From Desulfurobacteriaceae bacterium (lineage in GTDB: Bacteria; Aquificota; Aquificia; Desulfurobacteriales; Desulfurobacteriaceae): a stretch of 64,000 nt of DNA. Below the pieces are notes generated by a model. That model saw only the letters and a program-made list of their open reading frames with translations, searched no databases and had not been told where the DNA came from. Position 1 is the first letter of the stretch, and the number at the start of each line of letters is the position of its first letter. Shown here one piece after another: positions 2 through 21,988 of the stretch. Location of the stretch: positions 34,309 to 98,308 of the forward strand of contig JAMORC010000039.1 in assembly GCA_027063785.1 (NCBI GenBank), written 5' to 3'. Position numbers and translations under genes: made by a program.

Positions 2-832
2 GGAATCGATGACTTCCCCGACACGCTTTTTTACTTACCTCCGCCTGTTAAGGGATTTGTCGGGTCGGACTTTCTTGCCAACGTGATTACCCTCGAGGAA
101 AGCAGTTTTAAAAACTTTGCCGTTGCAGACCTCGGAACAAACGCAGAAATCGGCTTCTGCACCGACCGTCAGCTCGCCACTTCCGTTCCGGCAGGACCTG
201 CCTTTGAGGGAGTGGGGCTTTTTTCCGGCATGAGGGCCGTTGAGGGAGCAATCCACAAAGTCTTCTTTGACGGCAGGGACTTCAAGTTCCTTACGATAGG
301 CGGTAAAAAACCTTCCGGTATATGCGCAAGCGGTTACTTTGACCTGATCTACCTTCTCAAGAGCTTCAAAGTCCTCAACAGAGAAGGAACTTTCCTGTCA
401 CAGCTTCCACCGCTGATTGAAGCAAAAATCAAAGATATTAACGGCGAAAAGGCGTTTGTCCTTTACGATGACGGCGAAATCCTGATTGCTCTTACCCAGA
501 GCGACATCAGGAAATTCCTCCTGGCAAAGGCAGCTGTTTACGGCGCCTTGTCGGTTTTACTCGAAAAGGCGGGAAAACCGGAAAGGCTTTTCTTTTCGGG
601 AGCCTTCGGCACCCACCTTGATAGGAGAAGTATAGAAGGAGTAAAGCTGATTCCGGACGACCTCCCGAATCCCGAACCTGCCGGAAACCTTGCCGTAAGG
701 GGAGCTTCCCTTCTACTCGGCAGTAAAAAACTCAAAGAAAAGGTTAAACTGATAAAAGAAAGCTTCGACGTAGAAGAACTGGCCTTGAGTAAACTATTTG
801 AGGAAAAGTACCTGGAGGGAATGGAACTTTGA
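2..832 (+). CDS. ASKHA-domain corrinoid-activation (RACo-like) protein, C-terminal part
   Basis: The frame is open from base 2, so the true start lies left of the window; the GTG at 83 is internal. About 276 residues are visible. They match the C-terminal ASKHA ATPase domain (DUF4445) of reductive activators of corrinoid proteins: a phosphate-1 type motif DLGTNAEIG at about residue 45, the segment GLFSGMRAVEGAI, and FFSGAFGTHLD near the end. In the family an N-terminal [2Fe-2S] domain passes electrons to the Co(II) corrinoid protein at the expense of ATP; that part is outside the window. The stop overlaps the next gene by four bases (TTGA), indicating an operon. Such proteins usually go with Wood-Ljungdahl or methyltransferase systems, which is notable given cooS at 19512-21476. 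Confidence 0.72.
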   Translation, partial: GIDDFPDTLFYLPPPVKGFVGSDFLANVITLEESSFKNFAVADLGTNAEIGFCTDRQLATSVPAGPAFEGVGLFSGMRAVEGAIHKVFFDGRDFKFLTIGGKKPSGICASGYFDLIYLLKSFKVLNREGTFLSQLPPLIEAKIKDINGEKAFVLYDDGEILIALTQSDIRKFLLAKAAVYGALSVLLEKAGKPERLFFSGAFGTHLDRRSIEGVKLIPDDLPNPEPAGNLAVRGASLLLGSKKLKEKVKLIKESFDVEELALSKLFEEKYLEGMEL

Positions 833-2537: not shown

Positions 2538-2976
2538 CAAAGTTTTTGTCGATGCCAATGTTATCTTAGACCTCTTTGTGCCGGATAGACCTTTCGCTGA
2601 CCAATCTATTACTGCAATAGAACAACTACTTGATAGGAATGTTCAGCTTTTTACAAGCTGTGATTTGATAACCACCGTTTATTATTTCCTTGCTAAGTTG
2701 GATAGACAAAAGGCTTTTAAATCAATAGAAGCGGTTACCGAAATCTTTGATCTGGTTCCGTTTTCCAACATAGAGTTGATAGAGGCCTTGAGTCTTATGA
2801 GAAAAGATAGAAACTTTATAGATTTAGAGGATACTATTCAGTATGTTCTTGCCAGAAAAGCGGGATGTGACCTTATTATTACAAACGATAAAGCATTTTT
2901 CTCTCCGGACGTTGCGGTTTTAACATCGGAAAAACTACTAGAGGTTTTAAAAGGAGGAAAAGAATGGAAGCACTGA
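2527..2976 (+). CDS. PIN-domain ribonuclease toxin (VapC-like)
   Basis: A 149-residue PIN-domain protein with a GTG start inside the antitoxin gene. Expected acidic metal ligands are visible: D9 in FVDANVILD, the DLEDTIQY motif in the middle, and D in IITNDKAFF towards the C terminus. PIN toxins of this type cleave RNA (tRNA or rRNA in characterised VapCs) when freed from their antitoxin; the target here is unknown. The pairing, the overlap and the AT-rich composition support a mobile type II toxin-antitoxin module. Its stop overlaps the start of the next gene, so that gene may now be cotranscribed with it. Confidence 0.85.
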   Translation: MNFNKVFVDANVILDLFVPDRPFADQSITAIEQLLDRNVQLFTSCDLITTVYYFLAKLDRQKAFKSIEAVTEIFDLVPFSNIELIEALSLMRKDRNFIDLEDTIQYVLARKAGCDLIITNDKAFFSPDVAVLTSEKLLEVLKGGKEWKH

Positions 2977-3365
2977 AAGGCAAGCTCGTCTTTATCCAGA
3001 CGGCAGGAGGCGAAGGAGTAGTTCCAACTTCCGGAATTATCGGCGTCGTTGAAGAGGTTACGCCCGACTACGTAAAGGTAAAAGACGCCGGTGTTTTTGC
3101 TCTACTTCCGACAACAAAAGGCGCTCAGGCGACTATTATGCCCCTTGATCCTACGGCCAACGAACCCGTCGAGGCCCTGATTATGAAAGGACAGATTGTC
3201 TCTATAGTCCCGGTTACGGATAAGTCAAAGCTGAAGGAATTTCACCAGCAGTTTAAGGCAGCCGCCGCCGGGATAGAACTTCCATCCACCGGCGCAATTG
3301 ACCTGTCCAAGATTAAGGAGTTTCCGAAGGGCGGTAAAGGAACGGGAGGTCTCTCAATAACTTGA
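2964..3365 (+). CDS. Unknown conserved-looking 133-residue protein
   Basis: I do not recognise this protein. The ATG at 2964 has a strong AGGAGG site. Residues 1-80 are rich in short hydrophobic strands and glycines (GKLVFIQTAGGEGVV, GVVEEVTPDYVKVKDAG), suggesting a small beta-barrel. The C-terminal third is Lys/Gly-rich and probably flexible (FPKGGKGTGG). There is no signal peptide. It overlaps the PIN gene upstream and, by four bases (TTGA), the histidine kinase downstream, so it may be a partner of the NtrB/NtrC-like pair. Confidence 0.55.
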   Translation: MEALKGKLVFIQTAGGEGVVPTSGIIGVVEEVTPDYVKVKDAGVFALLPTTKGAQATIMPLDPTANEPVEALIMKGQIVSIVPVTDKSKLKEFHQQFKAAAAGIELPSTGAIDLSKIKEFPKGGKGTGGLSIT

Positions 3366-4366
3366 AAGCGGAAGACCTGCTCTTTTCCCACCCCTTCCCC
3401 GTTGTCGTTACCGACGGGGAGGGGAAGATAAAACTGGTAAACCAGAAGTTTGAAGCTCTGGTCAACAGGTCGCAGAAGTATCTGAAGGGGAAATACCTGT
3501 TTTCCCTGCTTGAGGGCGGGGAAAAGCTGAAAAAACACCTGCTTGAAGCCTACAATAAGTCGATAGACGTTTTGGGAGTAAGGTTGGGGGATCGCTACTT
3601 TTCCTTCTCCCCCCTTTACGTCTCGAATAACCTCAAAGGTGTTGTCGTAGTTGTCGAACCTGCAGGAGAACTTTCTTTCGGTGAAGACATACTTCTCCTG
3701 CTTAAGGGACTTTCTCACGAAATCAGAAACCCCTTGGGAGGGATAAAGGGAGCTGCGAAGCTCTTTAAAGAACTCAGTTCTTACGATGAAGAACTTGTTA
3801 ACGTTATGATTGAAGAAATCGAAAGGATAGAGAGACTTCTAAACGACGTTGTAAGGAGCTTCGACTTCTCCTCCCTCTCTTTCAAAAAAGAAAACATCCA
3901 CAGACTTATCCAGCAGGCAGTAGAGCTTTTCAGTTCAAGAATTTCGGAAATGGACATTGAGATTCTCTACCGGTTCGATCCCTCCCTCCCGGAAATCCCG
4001 GTTGATGCCGACAGGCTCCTTCAGGCGCTGATAAACCTCATTAAGAACGCCATCGAAGCAATGGAGGAATGCCCGAGGAGGATTCTGAAATTAGAAACCG
4101 GTTATGCCATTCACCCGTCCGGCTTTATATTTATCAAGGTCTCTGATACCGGGAAAGGCATGGACAGCGAGGAACTTAAGAATTTCTCCCTCCCTTTCTT
4201 CACAACAAAGGAAAAAGGACTGGGACTCGGATCCTTCATAGTGAGGGAAGTAGTAAAGGGACACGGCGGAGAACTTAAAGTCGAAAGCAGAAAAGGAGAA
4301 GGAACTTCCGTTACACTCCTGCTTCCTATGAAGAGGGAAGATGGCAAGGATTCTTGTGGCAGATGA
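3362..4366 (+). CDS. NtrB-like sensor histidine kinase
   Basis: A 334-residue soluble histidine kinase with no membrane segments. A PAS-like sensor domain covers residues 8-98 (FPVVVTDGEGKIKLVNQKF). The H-box LSHEIRNPLGG follows, with phospho-accepting H119. The N box (NLIKNAIEAM) and the G boxes (DTGKGM, GLGLGSFIV) form the HATPase domain. Cytoplasmic PAS-HisKA-HATPase kinases next to NtrC-type regulators are the NtrB class, often responding to nitrogen or redox state. The start is TTG, overlapping the upstream stop; its 3' end overlaps the response-regulator gene by 26 bases. The signal sensed cannot be told from sequence. Confidence 0.85.
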   Translation: MKAEDLLFSHPFPVVVTDGEGKIKLVNQKFEALVNRSQKYLKGKYLFSLLEGGEKLKKHLLEAYNKSIDVLGVRLGDRYFSFSPLYVSNNLKGVVVVVEPAGELSFGEDILLLLKGLSHEIRNPLGGIKGAAKLFKELSSYDEELVNVMIEEIERIERLLNDVVRSFDFSSLSFKKENIHRLIQQAVELFSSRISEMDIEILYRFDPSLPEIPVDADRLLQALINLIKNAIEAMEECPRRILKLETGYAIHPSGFIFIKVSDTGKGMDSEELKNFSLPFFTTKEKGLGLGSFIVREVVKGHGGELKVESRKGEGTSVTLLLPMKREDGKDSCGR

Positions 4367-5711
4367 CGAAAAGAGCATAAGGGTTGTCCTGAAGCGATAC
4401 CTCGAATCAAGGGGACATGAGGTAGTCGAGGCTTCTGACGGCATTGAGGCCTTAAGAATCCTGAAGGAAGAAGAAATTGATGTAGCCTTCGTAGACATAA
4501 GAATGCCGGGGAAAAGCGGACTTGACGTCCTTAAAGAGATCAGAGACGTCCCGATAGTCATACTTACGGCCTACGGGACTATGGACTACACGGTCAAGGC
4601 AATGGAACTCGGAGCGGTTGAATACATAACCAAGCCTTTCTTATTTGAAGAGGTAAGCGCAATCCTTGAGAAGCTCCTTTCGGAGAGAAAAAAGGACGGA
4701 AGCGGGAATGAGGTCGAGGACGGACTTGAGATAGTAGGTTCGAGCCGAAAGATGCAGGAAGTATTTAAGGTAGTGGGAAGGGTTGCGAGAAGCTCTATAA
4801 CTGTTCTAATCACGGGAGAAAGCGGAACAGGTAAGGAAGTCATTGCAAGAGCCATTCACAGGTATTCTAACCGGAAAAACGCACCGTTCGTTGCCGTTAA
4901 CTGCGCAGCACTCCCTCCGAATCTCCTTGAAGCAGAACTTTTCGGCTATGAGAAAGGAGCTTTCACGGGAGCAATCTCAAGGAAAACCGGGCTCTTCGAA
5001 CAGGCCAGCGGCGGCACGCTTTTCCTCGATGAAATCGGAGAACTTCCGCCGGAGCTTCAAGCAAAGCTCCTGAGAGTCCTCCAGGAAAAGGAAATCAGGA
5101 GAATAGGCGGAACACGCCCCGTTAAGGTCGACTTCAGGCTAATAGCGGCAACAAACAGGGACCTTGAAACAGAAGTCAAAAAGGGAAGGTTCAGGGAGGA
5201 TCTTTACTTCAGGCTCAACGTTGTCAGGATCGAACTTCCTCCCCTCAGGGAAAGAAAGGAAGACATTATCCCCCTTGCTCACCACTTTATAAGAAAGTTC
5301 TCAAAGGAGTTTAAGCTCCCGCCAAAAGAACTGACCAATAGGGCCGTTGAATTCCTGCTCCACTACCACTTCCCGGGAAACGTCAGGGAGCTTGAAAACA
5401 TGATACTCCGCGCTATGATCCTATCCAGGGTTAATTTTATCGACGCAGAAGACCTAAAGCCGGACTGCAAACAGACGGCACCCTCCTTTGAGGAAGCCAT
5501 AAAAAACTTCGTTGTTGAAATATTCTCCGTAGAACAGAAGGAGAAGAACAACCTTTACGATCTGATAATTAAAAGTGCGGAAAAGATCCTCATATCGGAA
5601 GTCCTCAAGTTTTGCAACTTCAATCAAGTTAAGGCTGCCAGAGTCCTAGGAATCCACAGGAACACACTGAGAAAAAAAATAAAAGAACTGGGGATAGAGC
5701 TAAACTGTTGA
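4341..5711 (+). CDS. NtrC-family sigma-54-dependent response regulator
   Basis: A 456-residue protein with receiver, AAA+ and Fis-type HTH domains. The receiver phosphorylation site is D52 (VDIRMPGKSG). The AAA+ domain has Walker A GESGTGKE (159-166), the sigma-54 contact loop GAFTGA (206-211) and Walker B GGTLFLDEIGELP. The HTH lies at about 425-452. It should activate sigma-54 promoters when phosphorylated by the overlapping kinase gene. I found no clear -24/-12 promoter in this window. Its TGA stop lies inside the palindrome at 5708-5721, upstream of the selenoprotein candidate. Confidence 0.93.
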   Translation: MARILVADDEKSIRVVLKRYLESRGHEVVEASDGIEALRILKEEEIDVAFVDIRMPGKSGLDVLKEIRDVPIVILTAYGTMDYTVKAMELGAVEYITKPFLFEEVSAILEKLLSERKKDGSGNEVEDGLEIVGSSRKMQEVFKVVGRVARSSITVLITGESGTGKEVIARAIHRYSNRKNAPFVAVNCAALPPNLLEAELFGYEKGAFTGAISRKTGLFEQASGGTLFLDEIGELPPELQAKLLRVLQEKEIRRIGGTRPVKVDFRLIAATNRDLETEVKKGRFREDLYFRLNVVRIELPPLRERKEDIIPLAHHFIRKFSKEFKLPPKELTNRAVEFLLHYHFPGNVRELENMILRAMILSRVNFIDAEDLKPDCKQTAPSFEEAIKNFVVEIFSVEQKEKNNLYDLIIKSAEKILISEVLKFCNFNQVKAARVLGIHRNTLRKKIKELGIELNC

Positions 5712-5721
5712 CGCAGGTCAA
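5708..5721. promoter_or_regulatory. Crp/Fnr-type operator TTGAC-N4-GTCAA upstream of the Sec-ferredoxin
   Basis: A perfect 14-bp inverted repeat, TTGAC GCAG GTCAA, overlapping the stop codon of the ntrC-like gene. It has the FNR/DNR architecture (TTGAY-N4-RTCAA) and is identical in both half-sites to the site at 21537-21550 between cooS and the NifX-like gene. TATAAT at 5755-5760 is a likely -10 element; the operator centre would lie roughly 50-60 bp upstream of the transcription start, compatible with class I activation. The likely ligand is the Crp/Fnr protein encoded at 18501-19145. Confidence 0.65.
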
Positions 5722-5791: not shown

Positions 5792-6403
5792 ATGAAACCT
5801 AACTTAAGGAAGGTTAAACGACAAGTAATCCTTCACCAGGACGGAACACCTTACGTTCCCCAGTATCCCGGTGGCATAAATACCCTGAAATGCACAGGAT
5901 GCGGCGAGTGTGCTGAGATCTGTCCTCAAGGGTGTATAGAAATCCAAGAAGTTGACGGTCGGAATGTTGCCGTCCTCACAAAGCTTGAACTCTGTATAGG
6001 CGACGGATTCTGCAAAATAGTTTGTCCCGAAGACGCTTTCCTCTGAGGTATTAACTGTTCCTCCGGTCCGGAGGAAATCGAAGTAAACGAAGACGAACTC
6101 CTCTCCGACAATGAGGGAAACTACGCATACCTAACGCTGGGAGGATTCCTCTACACCCCCAGTTACCTTGAAAAAATTGATCATAACAAGTGCAAAAACT
6201 GCGAAAGGTGTCTGGAGCTTTGCGAAACGAGGGGAATAGACAAAGATGGAAAAGTAATCCCGGAATTTCCCGAAATATGCAACGGTTGCGGTCACTGCGT
6301 AAACATCTGTCCTGCAAAGAGCATTAACGCAAAGCCGATACCTCTGGAAGAGATGAAAAGAAGGGTTAGAAAAAAAAAGAAAACCTCTAACTACAACTTT
6401 TAA
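5792..6403 (+). CDS. Four-cluster ferredoxin with predicted selenocysteine (UGA at 6044)
   Basis: Read through the TGA at 6044-6046 this is one 203-residue polyferredoxin with Sec at position 85. The first half has C34-C37-C40-C44 and a second set C68-x2-D71-x2-C74-x3-C78, where Asp replaces one Cys as in some archaeal ferredoxins. The second half has C134/137/140/144 and C163/166/169/173 and a Lys-rich tail. U85 forms a U-x3-C pair with C89. The same frame continues without another stop for 118 codons, and a SECIS-like hairpin follows the UGA at the expected distance (see 6044-6076). A naive annotation would give an 84-residue truncated ferredoxin. It is monocistronic, with an FNR-type operator upstream, and its 3' end overlaps the convergent gene by 17 bases. 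A four-cluster ferredoxin of this size resembles the CooF type of CO dehydrogenase partner, but that role is inference. Confidence 0.82.
6044..6076 (+). promoter_or_regulatory. Bacterial SECIS element (UGA plus hairpin)
   Basis: The in-frame UGA (6044-6046) is followed by a perfect 7-bp stem, TTCCTCC (6058-6064) with GGAGGAA (6070-6076), closing a GGUCC loop (6065-6069). In Escherichia coli fdhF the SelB-binding apical loop carries GGUC, and its first G is base 22 counting the U of UGA as 1; here the loop G is also base 22. A weaker lower stem (6054-6056 with 6082-6084) is possible. The loop identity and exact spacing are what SelB requires for selenocysteine insertion. selA, selB, selC and selD are not in this window. 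Confidence 0.8.
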
Positions 6404-8407: not shown

Positions 8408-8427
8408 CCCCCGACTAAAGTCGGGGG
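8408..8427. repeat. Right-end subterminal hairpin of the TnpB element
   Basis: A near-perfect palindrome with a 9-bp stem and an AA centre. It overlaps the last codons and the stop of tnpB. In IS200/IS605 elements such hairpins are recognised by TnpA and also form the 3' part of the guide (omega) RNA used by TnpB. Confidence 0.7.
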
Positions 8428-9680
8428 CTTCCCGCTTCATCGTGGGATAAACCCCACTCCACGGGCGTTACTTTCCCGCAGTCCACGGGTAGGGTTTTTA
8501 GGAGTTTTCCTTCTCCTTTAAGCTTCTCTATCGCTATCCTCAGTATGTTCCTCGCTGAATTAACGTCTCTGTCTATCTCTTTACCGCAACTCTGACACTT
8601 AAAGGTTCTCTCTGATAGAAAAACTTTCTGTCTATGCCCACAAAAGGAGCAAGTTTGGGTAGTAGGTTCGTATCTATCTACAAAGACCACAGGAATAAGG
8701 GTCGCAAGGGTTCTCAGCCTTGCAGTTATTCCCCCTATTCCCGTGTTTTGTATCTGTTTACCGAAATATCCCTCTTTCCAGCTCTTGATGTTGTCGTTCT
8801 GAACTACTATGAGAGAGAATCTTTTGAGGTAGCTTACTGCTTTATTGAGGGTGTCTTTTCGCTTGTTGTTGATGTATTCCCACTCTCTCCTAATTAGCTG
8901 TTTTATCTTCCAGTAGTTCTTACTCCCCTTCTGTTTTCTGGAAAGGGATTTTTGCAGTCTCTTTAGTCTTTTAGTCTCAGGTATATACCAGCTGAATTTC
9001 TCTCCGCTTGACAGAGTTAGCTGGTGCTTTATCCCTAAGTCTATACCTATCGGTTCTTTTAATCGCCTTTCTCTAATTTCCTTTAAAACTTCTTCTTTTG
9101 GAAGGTAGCAGACTACGTGCAGGTAGTATCCGGAGGGTTTCTTAATAAGCTGTGCTTCTGCAAGTTCTGCGTTTTTCGGTATTTGGTGGAGACCTAAGAC
9201 TCTAAATCTCTTCTTTATCCCCTGTATCTTTACTTTATTCTTGTCTCCTAAAATCTTGTAGGTTATTCCGTATTGTTTTAACGGTATGCTTCTAACTTCG
9301 CTCTTAAATGAGAGCTTCCCTACCTTGATTCCTTTTTCCTTTGCTCTTTTGAGGGAGAGAAGATTTCCCTTTATCCTTTCTACTATTCCTTGCCTCATCT
9401 GGGAGGAGAGTTGTTTTATTTCTCTCCTTTTAAACCCCTCTGGTGTTTTGATTTCTACTTCTTTGAGTTTCCAAGTATCTCTGTTCAACCTGTTTTCTAC
9501 ATCTGCAATTATGTAGTTGTATAGCCACTTTGCCTCAAGGAATAATCTGCCTAATACTTCTCTGTCTTTTTCTGATAGATTCTGGAGCTTGAGCTGATAG
9601 ACTCGGGGAACCTGAATTTTTCTTTTTTCCCTCGTCTGCTTTAAGGTGTTTCTTATCTTTTCAGCTTTAACCCGTCCCAT
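8415..9680 (-). CDS. tnpB: TnpB, RNA-guided endonuclease of IS200/IS605 (OrfB)
   Basis: A 421-residue TnpB. The N-terminal helical and beta-barrel region is followed by a split RuvC domain with D214 (GIDLGIKHQ), an acidic residue D296 in the second block (VVQNDNIKSW, the Q-x-D/E variant seen in one IS1341-like subgroup) and D372 (DRDVNSARNIL). The zinc finger C344/C347/C362/C365 is intact. All catalytic positions are present, so the nuclease may be active. TnpB uses a guide RNA from the element's right end to cut target DNA and favour retention of the element. Confidence 0.92.
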   Translation of the reverse strand: MGRVKAEKIRNTLKQTREKRKIQVPRVYQLKLQNLSEKDREVLGRLFLEAKWLYNYIIADVENRLNRDTWKLKEVEIKTPEGFKRREIKQLSSQMRQGIVERIKGNLLSLKRAKEKGIKVGKLSFKSEVRSIPLKQYGITYKILGDKNKVKIQGIKKRFRVLGLHQIPKNAELAEAQLIKKPSGYYLHVVCYLPKEEVLKEIRERRLKEPIGIDLGIKHQLTLSSGEKFSWYIPETKRLKRLQKSLSRKQKGSKNYWKIKQLIRREWEYINNKRKDTLNKAVSYLKRFSLIVVQNDNIKSWKEGYFGKQIQNTGIGGITARLRTLATLIPVVFVDRYEPTTQTCSFCGHRQKVFLSERTFKCQSCGKEIDRDVNSARNILRIAIEKLKGEGKLLKTLPVDCGKVTPVEWGLSHDEAGSPRL

Positions 9681-18500: not shown

Positions 18501-19145
18501 ATGGAAGACCTGAGGAAAATCCCTCTACTTTCGGAACTTTCGGAAGATCAACTAAAAAAAGTTCTCTCGATAGCAACGCTTAAGAAATACCCCAAGGGCA
18601 AAGTAATATTCACCCCCTCTCAAAAGGGAGAGTTTTTTTTCATTCTGAAGAAGGGTAAAGTAAAAGTATTCAAAACGGCAAAAGGCAAAGAGCAAATACT
18701 CAAAGTCTTCTCAAAGCCTGCCATTTTTGGAGAAGCCGCAAGCTTTACCGGGAGTTATTTCCCGGCCTGGGCAGAAAGCTTGGAAGAATCCGAAGTTTTG
18801 GTAATTCCCAGAAAAGAGTTTCTCAACCTGCTGAGGGAAGATCCGGAAATAGGAATGAAGCTTCTCGCCGTTATGGCTCAAAGGCTTATGCACCTTACCG
18901 GCGTAATAGAGAACCTTTCTCTAAAAGATGCTCTCTCAAAGGTATCCTCCTACATACTGACGCTATACGGCGAAATGGGAGAGGAAATAACTTTCCGGAC
19001 AAACATTGCAGCTATGGAACTCGGCCTCACAAAGGAAACAGTTTCCCGCATGCTGTCAAAGCTTAAAGAGATGGGAATAATAGAGAAGAATAGGAACTCC
19101 ATAAAAATTAAAGACCTCAAAGCCCTCAAGGAACTTTCAATCTAA
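18501..19145 (+). CDS. Crp/Fnr-family transcription regulator without cysteines
   Basis: A 214-residue regulator: cyclic-nucleotide-binding-type sensor domain (about 7-125), dimerisation helix (about 115-145) and winged HTH. The recognition helix LTKETVSRMLSKLKE contains E179-x2-S182-R183, the FNR-type reading head for TTGA half-sites. There is no cysteine in the protein, so it cannot carry an FNR iron-sulfur cluster; the segment GEAASFTGSYFPAWAES resembles DNR/Nnr-type sensors that bind haem and respond to NO, and a CO-sensing role is also conceivable. It lies just upstream of a convergent YgbA_NO gene and cooS, and TTGAC-N4-GTCAA sites occur at 5708-5721 and 21537-21550. Confidence 0.9.
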   Translation: MEDLRKIPLLSELSEDQLKKVLSIATLKKYPKGKVIFTPSQKGEFFFILKKGKVKVFKTAKGKEQILKVFSKPAIFGEAASFTGSYFPAWAESLEESEVLVIPRKEFLNLLREDPEIGMKLLAVMAQRLMHLTGVIENLSLKDALSKVSSYILTLYGEMGEEITFRTNIAAMELGLTKETVSRMLSKLKEMGIIEKNRNSIKIKDLKALKELSI

Positions 19146-19448
19146 GAACTTTTCCCTAAGTTCGTGAACCAGCCAGCTCAAAGGGCTATAAAGAAAAAGT
19201 CTCGGCCCGCTGAAGCGCATCACCTCTTTAATCCTACTTCTCATCTCAGGAGTGTAGCAGTGAACAGGACACCTCTTACAGGTAGGCTTATCCTCGCCGA
19301 AAGGACAAACTTCAAGCCTTTCGTAAGCATACCTCAGAAGTTTTCGGCACTCGGGACAGAGTTCCCCCTTTTGCACGCCGTGCTTTTTCCAGCAGTAAAT
19401 TTCAAGCATTTTCCTTATTGTTCTTTTTTCCCTTTCCAGCCTGCTCAA
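19137..19448 (-). CDS. YgbA_NO family (nitrous-oxide-stimulated promoter) protein
   Basis: A 103-residue cytoplasmic protein with conserved cysteines in the pattern LCPEC, VCPFG and CKRCPVHCY, typical of the YgbA_NO family, whose E. coli member is induced by nitric oxide and helps recovery from nitrosative stress. The cysteines probably bind a metal or cluster. It overlaps the Crp/Fnr gene tail-to-tail by nine bases and lies downstream of cooS on the same strand, separated by a terminator hairpin. The context suggests a nitrosative or gas-response function. Confidence 0.85.
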   Translation of the reverse strand: MSRLEREKRTIRKMLEIYCWKKHGVQKGELCPECRKLLRYAYERLEVCPFGEDKPTCKRCPVHCYTPEMRSRIKEVMRFSGPRLFLYSPLSWLVHELREKFLD

Positions 19449-19511: not shown

Positions 19512-21476
19512 TTATATACCAAGAAGCTCTCTCTTCTTCACTATGTGTTCTTCAATACCGTCCGCAGCCTGAACGGGATCATCCCCGACGGCAATCTTTC
19601 CGCCGGTCAGGCCTTCAACCTCTTCGGTAAGTAACTTAACGACTTTATCAGAACCGGTTACCGGAGGAACGGGAGAAACGTGGGTGTAAAGTCCCATGGC
19701 AACGGCAGAAAAACCGTCAATAACGGCCTTCTGTTCCATATACTCTGGTGCAGTAACGGCCACAGGAAGCTGGGAGGGATCAACACCCAGAGCATTGGCA
19801 ATCGCCACGACGGTCATGATAATTCTTCCCGTATCGGTGCAGGTTCCGAAGGAAAGGACAGGAGGAATTCCGAGAGCCTTACAAACCCCGGCAAGCTTCG
19901 GACCCGCGTACTTATCGACAGCCTCAAGAGTCTCAAGTCCGGCTTTCTGAAGACCCGCATTTCCGCAACCGGCACCGATTACAAGGATATCTCTCTTTAT
20001 AAGCTCCTTCGCTATTTGAACTGTCATGCTGTCCTGGGGACCGTTCCCGAGGGAAGTACAGTTAACGAGAGCAACAACTCCCTTAATATCTCCGGATTTA
20101 ATTACTTCAAGAAGCGGGTCAAGGCTTCCGCCGAGGGCGTTAACTATCGCCTCTGCGGAAAATCCGACAATAGCCTTCTGCTTAAACCTGGAAACGTCAG
20201 CCTTCGGAGCGCTCTTTCTCTCCTTAAAGTTTTCGATTGCAAGCTTTATTATCTCCTCGGCTACCTTTGACTCATTCCCCGGCTTGTACTCAAGCCTTAT
20301 TGAACCGGGAACACCTATGATGTTTGAAACGGCTATAAGCTTAAACCTGTACTTATCTGCGTACTCCTTAAGGTTGGCAAGGGAACAGTTCATATCCATA
20401 ACAAAGGCATCGACTGCTCCGGTTGAGAGGAAGTACTCTATCGATATCCAGTTTGAAGTAAGACCGGCAAATACGTCGTCGCACTCAAGTCTTGCCATCA
20501 TCTCCTGACCGGTTTCAATAGAACCAACGATTTTCACCCCTTTAGCACCGGCAGCCCTTGCCATCTCCTGAACTTTCGGGTCTTTAGCCAGCTTAACAAG
20601 GGCCATACCGACAAAAGGTTCGTGTCCGTTGGGCAGGATGTTAACGTAGTCGGGATCGAGAATACCGAAGTCAACCTCGCACTCGTGAGGAGTAGGCGTT
20701 CCGTAAAGGGCATCTTGAATAATCTCAAGGGGAACTAAAGCTCCGAAAGCAGAAGCAACGCCGTTTCTGAGAGCTGCCAGCGCCAGGGTAATGTAGTCCC
20801 CATCGATGTTGGTCATTGAGCGAGTTACGGAATCGACAAGCTCATTCATAGGTCCTTTGGGCATTATGCCGAGCCTTCTGAAAACCTCCTTCCTGCTTTC
20901 AGGAGCCAGTTTCTCAACAAAGATTGACGTATCGTTTTGAGACAAGCTGCTGAGAACCCCCTCCGCTACCTGTTTGGCTTTCTCCTCCAGGGGAAGGGAT
21001 TTATCTACACCGAGAACATCCGCCAGCAGGTCAATCTTCGAGGGATCTTTAATCTCATAAACCGTATTTCCCTTTGCCGTTTCAAGGAGCGTTAAGGCTG
21101 CTTCCCTGCAGTGGTAGGTATAAGCGGAAAGCCCCATATTGGCCTTTATGAGGAAATTCCTCATAACAATACCGTGAGCGTCGATACCGCAAACTCCCCT
21201 GGGGGTTTTCGGAGTTATACGACAAGGGCCCATTGAACAAAGCTGACAGGAAACTCCCTCTTTACAGAACTTACACCTGACCTGTTCCATTGCCCCAAAT
21301 CGATCAGCAACGTTTGAAAGCCCGGCTTCCTTTACCTGTTTGTACATGTAGTTAACGCTTTCGTGGAAACTGGGCATTTTAAGGCCGACGCCTGCCGAAA
21401 GATCCGACTCCGCGCGGAAATTCTGCTGTTCTTTCTTTTCGCTTCCGTTCCCGTCCTTTTTGAAGAATCCAAACAT
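19512..21476 (-). CDS. cooS: Anaerobic Ni-Fe carbon monoxide dehydrogenase catalytic subunit CooS
   Basis: A 654-residue catalytic subunit interconverting CO and CO2. The N-terminal cluster region has C-x2-C-x5-GVSCQLCSMGPC and GVCG, for the B- and D-clusters. C-cluster segments are all visible: NGHEPF with its histidine, MDMNCSLAN, NCTSLGNGP, GAGCGNAGLQ and SFGTCTDTGRI. The ATG at 21476 is preceded by GGAGGAGAAA; longer frames extend only into the regulatory region. No acetyl-CoA synthase, CooC or CooF gene is next to it, so it is a solitary CODH. An FNR-type operator is centred 67 bp upstream of the start. In a reverse-TCA autotroph it could oxidise CO or reduce CO2. Confidence 0.96.
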   Translation of the reverse strand: MFGFFKKDGNGSEKKEQQNFRAESDLSAGVGLKMPSFHESVNYMYKQVKEAGLSNVADRFGAMEQVRCKFCKEGVSCQLCSMGPCRITPKTPRGVCGIDAHGIVMRNFLIKANMGLSAYTYHCREAALTLLETAKGNTVYEIKDPSKIDLLADVLGVDKSLPLEEKAKQVAEGVLSSLSQNDTSIFVEKLAPESRKEVFRRLGIMPKGPMNELVDSVTRSMTNIDGDYITLALAALRNGVASAFGALVPLEIIQDALYGTPTPHECEVDFGILDPDYVNILPNGHEPFVGMALVKLAKDPKVQEMARAAGAKGVKIVGSIETGQEMMARLECDDVFAGLTSNWISIEYFLSTGAVDAFVMDMNCSLANLKEYADKYRFKLIAVSNIIGVPGSIRLEYKPGNESKVAEEIIKLAIENFKERKSAPKADVSRFKQKAIVGFSAEAIVNALGGSLDPLLEVIKSGDIKGVVALVNCTSLGNGPQDSMTVQIAKELIKRDILVIGAGCGNAGLQKAGLETLEAVDKYAGPKLAGVCKALGIPPVLSFGTCTDTGRIIMTVVAIANALGVDPSQLPVAVTAPEYMEQKAVIDGFSAVAMGLYTHVSPVPPVTGSDKVVKLLTEEVEGLTGGKIAVGDDPVQAADGIEEHIVKKRELLGI

Positions 21477-21536: not shown

Positions 21537-21550
21537 TTGACCTAAGTCAA
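21537..21550. promoter_or_regulatory. Crp/Fnr-type operator between cooS and the NifX-like gene
   Basis: A perfect inverted repeat TTGAC CTAA GTCAA, midway in the divergent intergenic region. Candidate -10 elements lie 22 bp away towards cooS (TAGGAT, minus) and 21 bp away towards the NifX-like gene (TACAAT, 21572-21577), so one dimer could activate both promoters as a class II activator. The half-sites are identical to those at 5708-5721. Confidence 0.75.
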
Positions 21551-21610: not shown

Positions 21611-21988
21611 ATGATGAAGATCGTCGTTCCGGTGCTTGAAACGGAAGTAAAGGGAAAGAAGCTCGTAAACGCCCACTTCGGCAAATCAAAGCACTTTGCC
21701 GTTGTAGATACGGAAACGGGAAACGTTGAGGTAATTGAAAATCCGGGAATTCACCTTCCAAGGAGAAGGGGAATCTACATCGCGGAGATGTTTAAAGAGA
21801 AAGGAGTTCAGGCCGTTCTGGTAAAAGAAATGGGAGCAGGCGCTTTTGATAAGATAAGGAATGTTATGGGAATCAAAGTTTACCTTATTCCCCCGGAAAT
21901 TAAATTCCTGGATGAAGCAGTTGAGGCCTTTAAGGAAATGAAACTCAAAGAGCTTCCAGCCCCAAACGAAGAACCCCACGAGCATTAA
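21611..21988 (+). CDS. NifX/NifB-type dinitrogenase FeMo-cofactor-domain protein
   Basis: A 125-residue protein with the DiNase_FeMo-co fold: KIVVPVLETE, then NAHFGKSKHFAVVD, and AEMFKEKGVQAVLVKEMGAGAFDKI. Stand-alone members bind metal clusters or act as cofactor carriers; no nitrogenase genes are nearby. The usual start could be the ATG at 21611 or the one at 21614; GGAGG precedes both. It is transcribed divergently from cooS and shares its operator, which hints at a role in metal-centre assembly or sensing for CODH. Confidence 0.83.
   Translation: MMKIVVPVLETEVKGKKLVNAHFGKSKHFAVVDTETGNVEVIENPGIHLPRRRGIYIAEMFKEKGVQAVLVKEMGAGAFDKIRNVMGIKVYLIPPEIKFLDEAVEAFKEMKLKELPAPNEEPHEH

Follow-up and report, generated by a model that had tools for sequence, protein, structure and literature searches.

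In Table 1 of PMC13188914, the part of that paper drawn on here, the entries related to the gene described below are NF005503 (UxxC), HgcB (GVGU), HdrA (CxxU) and an Fe-S oxidoreductase (UGH). HgcB, the ferredoxin of mercury methylation, is a small dicluster ferredoxin with a selenocysteine (Sec) form, and FwdF and other polyferredoxins (PDB 5t5m and related) are built from tandem dicluster units. A regulatory precedent is found in the HcpR regulons, where, in the excerpted text of PMC1274295, HcpR1 boxes of the form TTGACnnnnGTCAA stand before hcp and the ferredoxin-like gene frdX, and the regulators lack the FNR Cys motif. The excerpted text of PMC9311411 describes CooS-V as marked by a Cys295-to-Glu exchange, with an Fe/S/O hybrid cluster and no CO activity, and the CooS-V of Carboxydothermus as only a slow hydroxylamine reductase that showed no NO reduction. 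The enzyme of T. ammonificans has been taken for a type V CO dehydrogenase with a possible place in an acetyl-CoA pathway and was reported with the conserved residues for a NiFeS cluster, in a text whose excerpt leaves the nitrite-to-ammonium step open (PMC5441870).

Here, we describe a gene from a Desulfurobacteriaceae bacterium that carries an in-frame TGA at codon 85 and that we call the Sec-ferredoxin gene. It lies in a 64,000-nucleotide stretch (positions 34,309-98,308) of contig JAMORC010000039.1 (assembly GCA_027063785.1), the whole of which is referred to as the window. Judged from sequence, the product is likely a two-part ferredoxin, predicted to be a four-cluster iron-sulfur protein; UGA85 is very probably decoded as Sec; and the protein probably represents an undescribed selenoprotein family.

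Features of the Sec-ferredoxin and cooS loci, in window coordinates.
Feature	Position	Strand	Remarks
Conserved 133-aa protein before the kinase	2964..3365	+	without Pfam or NCBIfam match
PAS histidine kinase (AtoS/ZraS/NtrB-like)	3362..4366	+	
NtrC-like sigma-54 response regulator, directly upstream of Sec-ferredoxin	4341..5711	+	Pfam, NCBIfam
Crp/Fnr-type box TTGACgcagGTCAA before Sec-ferredoxin	5708..5721	.	shares bases with the upstream stop codon
Sec-ferredoxin gene	5792..6403	+	203 codons with TGA85 read as Sec, then TAA
Predicted Sec codon, in-frame TGA, codon 85	6044..6046	+	TGA in 19/19 copies
7-bp hairpin with GGUCC loop, predicted SECIS	6058..6076	+	S90, S91 and E94 most constrained of 118 columns
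Crp/Fnr-family regulator, proposed to bind both boxes	18501..19145	+	0 Cys; Pfam
YgbA_NO family protein between cooS and the regulator	19137..19448	-	PF11756; 21/22 loci
cooS, CooS-V type, proposed electron acceptor	19512..21476	-	Glu for Cys295
Second perfect box (60 bases to the cooS start codon)	21537..21550	.	flanked by cooS and its divergent neighbor
NifX/Nitro_FeMo-Co-like protein, divergent from cooS, same box	21611..21988	+	PF02579; 19/22 loci

Build of the predicted product

The reading frame runs as the sequence-only reading had set it out, with ATG and 83 further codons before the TGA and 118 codons from there to TAA. That reading had also counted four cluster motifs, and this part of it stands in modified form. 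Three motifs are classical, one in the first half (C34-C44) and two 3′ of the UGA, where the C-x2-C-x2-C-x3-C pattern is intact as claimed (C134/137/140/144 and C163/166/169/173); the second motif before the UGA has Asp71 in place of its second Cys in all 19 copies known to us from related genomes (C68-x2-D71-x2-C74-x3-C78). The proposed U-x3-C pair of U85 and C89 is kept in every copy. Pfam Fer4 (PF00037) matches three stretches of the product with 68.0 bits against a cut-off of 21.1, and by eye the alignment makes the halves resemble copies of one dicluster unit, with the Sec ending the first. Each half would bind a pair of Fe-S clusters, with Asp71 standing in for a Cys at one of the four; Asp-ligated clusters occur in other ferredoxins. 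Sec85 and Cys89 may form a redox-active selenosulfide beside the Asp71 cluster, or, alternatively, one of the two may ligate the open iron of that cluster.

An AlphaFold model from 61 sequences (pLDDT 88.7, pTM 0.83), which replaced a first model from 19 sequences (pLDDT 61.5), has FwdF and related polyferredoxins as its best Foldseek match (E 2.2e-7), and the best Z that VIA-align returned for the Sec-ferredoxin model was a middling 5.8. The TM-score to FwdF is 0.26, with an rmsd of 22.5 over the whole model, which indicates that the local units match and their arrangement does not; FwdF, moreover, contains no Sec, and the NCBIfam FwdF model gives 36 bits against 375. HgcB differs in having a single dicluster unit and its Sec in GVGU, and the Sec-ferredoxin scores 39.4 against a cut-off of 99 for its model (NF040864). 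The Nif-specific ferredoxin III (TIGR02936) aligns with the first half, residues 14-83, at 63.6 bits, below its cut-off of 80.55; RnfB (TIGR01944) reaches 32.5 of 68.7, and no PF04060 domain was found in the Sec-ferredoxin at E 0.001. A Nif ferredoxin was considered and rejected, as nifH was not found in any of the 18 genomes carrying the gene at E 1e-30. Among the 22 genomes of the family, nifH was over cut-off only in two members of genus g7 (G016 and G019), both without the Sec-ferredoxin.

NF005503 is alike in combining a predicted Sec with an iron-sulfur protein that has ferredoxin-like parts, and is distinguished by its motif, UxxC as opposed to U-x3-C (PMC13188914, Table 1). At E 0.001, 55 NCBIfam models matched the Sec-ferredoxin; the best 25 of them were all under their cut-offs, and NF005503 was outside these 25. 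The missing PF04060 match is a further difference between the Sec-ferredoxin and NF005503. The earlier suggestion that the protein is undescribed agrees with Table 1 of PMC13188914, in which none of 119 families and subfamilies has such a build, and no recognisable description of the Sec-ferredoxin family stood among the best matches in the open-access PMC selenoprotein literature.

Codon 85 and the hairpin behind it

The whole frame is present in 18 of the 22 same-family genomes among 61 related genomes compared, and in none of the 39 outside the family, which gave short ferredoxin matches only; a profile search at E 1e-15 across 136 genomes from the phylum recovered the same 18 carriers. Because G013 has two copies, these genomes yield 19. 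A scan of named genomes returned 12 loci, 11 from Thermovibrio, Desulfurobacterium or other Desulfurobacteriaceae and one weak match in Bdellovibrio; several of the 11 coincide with loci of the related-genome set and are not additional copies. The sequence-only reading had named codon 85 of the homologues, Cys or UGA, as the place to look. It is TGA in 19/19 copies and TAA or TAG in none, and all 19 run on past codon 84. The UGA is thus a conserved in-frame codon with coding sequence on both sides, the median dN/dS being 0.081 before it (45 pairs with usable dS) and 0.087 after it (60 of 171 pairs with usable dS). Across the 19 copies the other conserved Cys columns mix TGT and TGC, with a single TGA exception at C48 of the second G013 copy (L047 3576-4154), which therefore has two UGAs; the extra one may be a second Sec, a mark of a decaying copy or a base error.

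Absence of selB or selC had been put forward as an observation that would speak against Sec insertion. The source genome (1.57 Mb, 63 contigs, 98.91% complete) encodes both. Its selC, with anticodon TCA and 83.4 bits, is the one tRNA-Sec over the Rfam cut-off, and SelB (430.6 bits), SelA (638.6) and SelD (372.0) are likewise over cut-off, with SelD carrying an in-frame TGA of its own. In the window itself, tRNA and Rfam scans returned ordinary tRNAs only. Among the 18 carriers, several of which are fragmented drafts, tRNA-Sec was found under stricter filters in 16 (not G017 or G020), SelB over cut-off in 16 (not G018 or G020), SelA in 17 (not G010) and SelD in 17 (not G018).

The hairpin behind the UGA is as first described, with a 7-bp stem (UUCCUCC/GGAGGAA) and a GGUCC loop that opens at base 22, taking the U of UGA as base 1. 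In E. coli fdhF the loop after the UGA is likewise at base 22. The stem starts at base 15 and has 8 bp if G22-C26 pairs too. The predicted SECIS is a hairpin just behind the UGA with a G in its loop. On both strands of the window, a hairpin of 6 bp or more whose RGK loop begins at base 19-23 follows only 4 of 1946 TGA triplets, UGA85 among them, and it follows none of the window's 21 mechanical ORFs of 150 aa or longer that end in TGA; the hairpin after UGA85 is more than chance would give. The GGUC loop recurs, one base closer to the UGA, in the selD hairpins of the source genome (G000) and of G004 and G021. Among 118 codon columns at which a degenerate amino acid is conserved, those with the least synonymous variation relative to expectation are S90 (TCC in 19/19), S91 (TCC in 16/17) and E94 (GAG in 17/17), which form the stem arms, and over the 39 nt behind the UGA 14 of 19 copies out-fold 95% of synonymous recodings. 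The folding energy of the window's own copy is ordinary (z -1.08; 25 of 200 dinucleotide shuffles fold as well); what carries the case for the hairpin is its conservation across genomes rather than energy. Covariation was assessed in the 16 copies of equal length (15 distinct), without G003, G005 and G009, in which the hairpin is one codon nearer the UGA. Paired cells amounted to 90% in register as against 38-68% when slid. Pairs 15-33 and 22-26 (2 of 8) change on both sides, five pairs never vary, pair 15-33 is unpaired in 8 of 15 copies and pair 22-26 in 3, the pair-type count is no higher than in shuffles, and one slid version scores higher for covariation. Covariation this weak adds little; codon choice is the strong signal. 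SelB would deliver Sec-tRNA at this hairpin.

If UGA85 were an ordinary stop, one message would give two proteins, a ferredoxin of 84 residues and another initiated further along. Public databases do list the second half as a separate protein: length and coverage (7 of the 15 read) mark 15 close matches of 103-131 residues as second halves, and the two that are named are annotated as hypothetical in Thermovibrio guaymasensis and as a dicluster protein in Desulfurobacterium thermolithotrophum. In 11 of 19 copies an in-frame ATG, GTG or TTG that could serve as a start lies 8 or 11 codons past the UGA. The other 8 copies, however, have no such codon between the UGA and the GNYA block, and the residues directly after the UGA are conserved as protein (G86 in 18/19, C89 and S90 in 19/19). 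The stem codons are under selection, and codon 85 is invariably TGA although the frames themselves end in TAA 13 times, in TAG 3 times and in TGA 3 times. We regard two separate proteins as highly improbable. Readthrough with another residue (such as Trp or Cys) outside the Sec pathway is a further rival, and no computation here identifies residue 85 itself. Against it, the genome encodes the Sec pathway, TGA closes 21 of the window's 62 mechanical ORFs of 150 aa or longer, and the hairpin loop matches that of the selD hairpin, so that the chance of such readthrough appears slighter still. Decoding of UGA85 as Sec is the reading that we follow from here on. Cys homologues are usual for selenoproteins, though they are no requirement. 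In a profile search of 5.8 billion proteins, with 7999 candidates scored and first halves falling below the length limit, no close full-length Cys homologue was seen among the 120 listed of 143 matches at E 0.001.

Crp/Fnr-type boxes and the cooS locus

Upstream of the Sec-ferredoxin, the NtrC-like regulator gene is the direct neighbor in 18 of 19 contexts, the remaining one being at a contig end; the PAS kinase is present in 16 of 19 and the 133-aa protein in 15 of 19. Genus g7 (G006, G012, G016 and G019) keeps this two-component block in 4/4 genomes and has the Sec genes, with the Sec-ferredoxin absent. There too the 133-aa protein directly precedes the kinase, and the gene behind the block is, by eye, what we take to be a leuC-like gene. 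In one context (L112 of G004) a block of ~7.2 kb stands twice in tandem, comprising GspG-like, SpoU-like, 133-aa protein, kinase and regulator genes, with the first regulator copy shortened to 241 aa. Window positions 83-832 encode the C-terminal part of a RACo/AcsV-like ASKHA protein (PF14574, 164.7 bits; longer frame in L048), whose gene is present in 9 of 19 contexts, and an ORF at 8415-9680 on the minus strand, presumably TnpB-like by eye, has a GC-rich inverted repeat near its end.

The Sec-ferredoxin gene is separated from the two-component block by an AT-rich gap and a Crp/Fnr-type box. The box pattern before Sec-ferredoxin genes is TTGAY-N4-RTCAA; among the 18 copies for which 140 nt of upstream sequence are available (G011 has only 71 nt and was left out), it is perfect in 10, has one mismatch in 2 and two or three in 6, compared with a perfect box in 0.4% of 5400 background windows. 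The upstream stop codon often overlaps the first half-site, which makes that half-site cheaper. The window contains only two perfect boxes, before the Sec-ferredoxin and before cooS, the two genes being 13 kb apart. Genome-wide, there is no excess of perfect boxes over a reversed control (8/7 in this genome and 12/9, 6/1, 10/7, 5/5 and 7/14 in five others), and delineation of a regulon by a genome-wide box scan was rejected, perfect boxes being about as frequent as in the control. Of the 8 in this genome, five fall in ORFs of 108-596 aa and one, placed by coordinates, inside selD, the remaining two being those of the Sec-ferredoxin and cooS. Other intergenic boxes (L142, L148, L150) occur in single genomes only.

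Of the 20 same-family loci in which the start of cooS was located, 18 have a perfect box no more than 220 nt from the gene; in G016 and G019 one lies at ~390 nt. Crp/Fnr and YgbA_NO genes are at most 1.5 kb from cooS in 21 of 22 loci. The Crp/Fnr regulator of the window, the copy in which the lack of Cys was read, combines this lack with TTGAC-N4-GTCAA boxes and proximity to a prismane-family gene, and no NCBIfam model is over cut-off for it. The cooS product has the CO dehydrogenase scaffold (TIGR01702, 789.2 bits) and the active-site motif GSIETGQE, with Glu for Cys295. The same motif is present in 21/21 same-family loci in which it was found, as against GSLCTGQE in 5/5 loci from other families; the active-site motif was read in 28 of 30 cooS loci, leaving out L182 and L183 (further G009 pieces), and was not matched in L174 and L181 (second CODH of G001). 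By bit score the window's enzyme is closest to 7b7q (684.5, the next being 419.4), which, from its GSIESGQE, we infer to be the CooS-V of Carboxydothermus. A true Hcp was found in none of the 22 same-family genomes at E 1e-60. The presence of Glu295 in what has been called the type V CO dehydrogenase of the Desulfurobacteriaceae argues against a CO enzyme and a role in the acetyl-CoA pathway. The idea that the Sec-ferredoxin is a CooF-like partner of a CO dehydrogenase was dropped, since the enzyme carries Glu295.

Proposed role and significance

The boxes before cooS and the Sec-ferredoxin mirror those of hcp and frdX in the HcpR regulons and point to the Sec-ferredoxin as a likely electron donor to CooS-V. 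The FrdX and Hcp pair under HcpR likewise consists of a prismane-family enzyme and a ferredoxin-like protein with TTGAC-N4-GTCAA boxes, and both systems have a Crp/Fnr regulator without the FNR Cys motif, as far as the excerpt of PMC1274295 describes them. The systems differ in that the enzyme here is CooS-V, not Hcp, that the ferredoxin carries a predicted Sec, and that its gene stands apart from that of the enzyme; the parallel seen with FrdX is a regulatory one. We propose that, under nitrosative conditions, both genes would be controlled by the Cys-free Crp/Fnr regulator in the manner of HcpR. The Sec-ferredoxin, taking the place of FrdX, would then donate electrons to CooS-V, taking that of Hcp, and the pair would reduce hydroxylamine or a related nitrogen oxide, as is thought for Hcp and FrdX. 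On balance, a Sec-ferredoxin with UGA85 read as Sec that carries electrons to CooS-V seems the better supposition, and once Sec insertion is granted, the partnership is somewhat more probable again.

Sec may also be inserted into a protein with a different task, one that serves the two-component system as its output or redox partner or that acts as a general carrier (for hydrogenase, nitrate reductase or carbon fixation). Such a role would suit the position of the NtrC-like regulator gene directly upstream in nearly every context and the fact that the box and cooS are common to only part of the genomes. Genus g7 bears on the matter from both sides. It has cooS and the regulator without the Sec-ferredoxin, so CooS-V does not depend on this protein everywhere, which argues against an obligatory pair, and one would expect a dedicated partner to have been retained there. 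At the same time, all four g7 genomes keep the two-component block in place without the ferredoxin, which, like the box and AT-rich gap that set the gene off from the block, speaks against a tie to the two-component system, and a nitrogenase-related function is disfavored by the absence of nifH from 18/18 carriers. We hold a role of this other kind to be less likely than electron transfer to CooS-V, though worth bearing in mind. The fullest version of the CooS-V proposal, in which Sec at the open, Asp-bearing cluster and CooS-V together make up the missing hydroxylamine-to-ammonium step of nitrate ammonification in the Desulfurobacteriaceae, under an HcpR-like switch and in a Sec-only family, is speculative and, taken as a whole, unlikely.

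If the assignment of UGA85 holds, it adds a selenoprotein family that public annotation splits in two and that searches based on Cys homologues would miss, because no Cys homologue was found. It would also mean that a simple electron carrier has Sec beside one of its Fe-S clusters. For the Desulfurobacteriaceae, the Sec-ferredoxin offers a candidate electron donor for CooS-V in a metabolism whose nitrite-to-ammonium step is stated to be unresolved in the excerpted text of PMC5441870.
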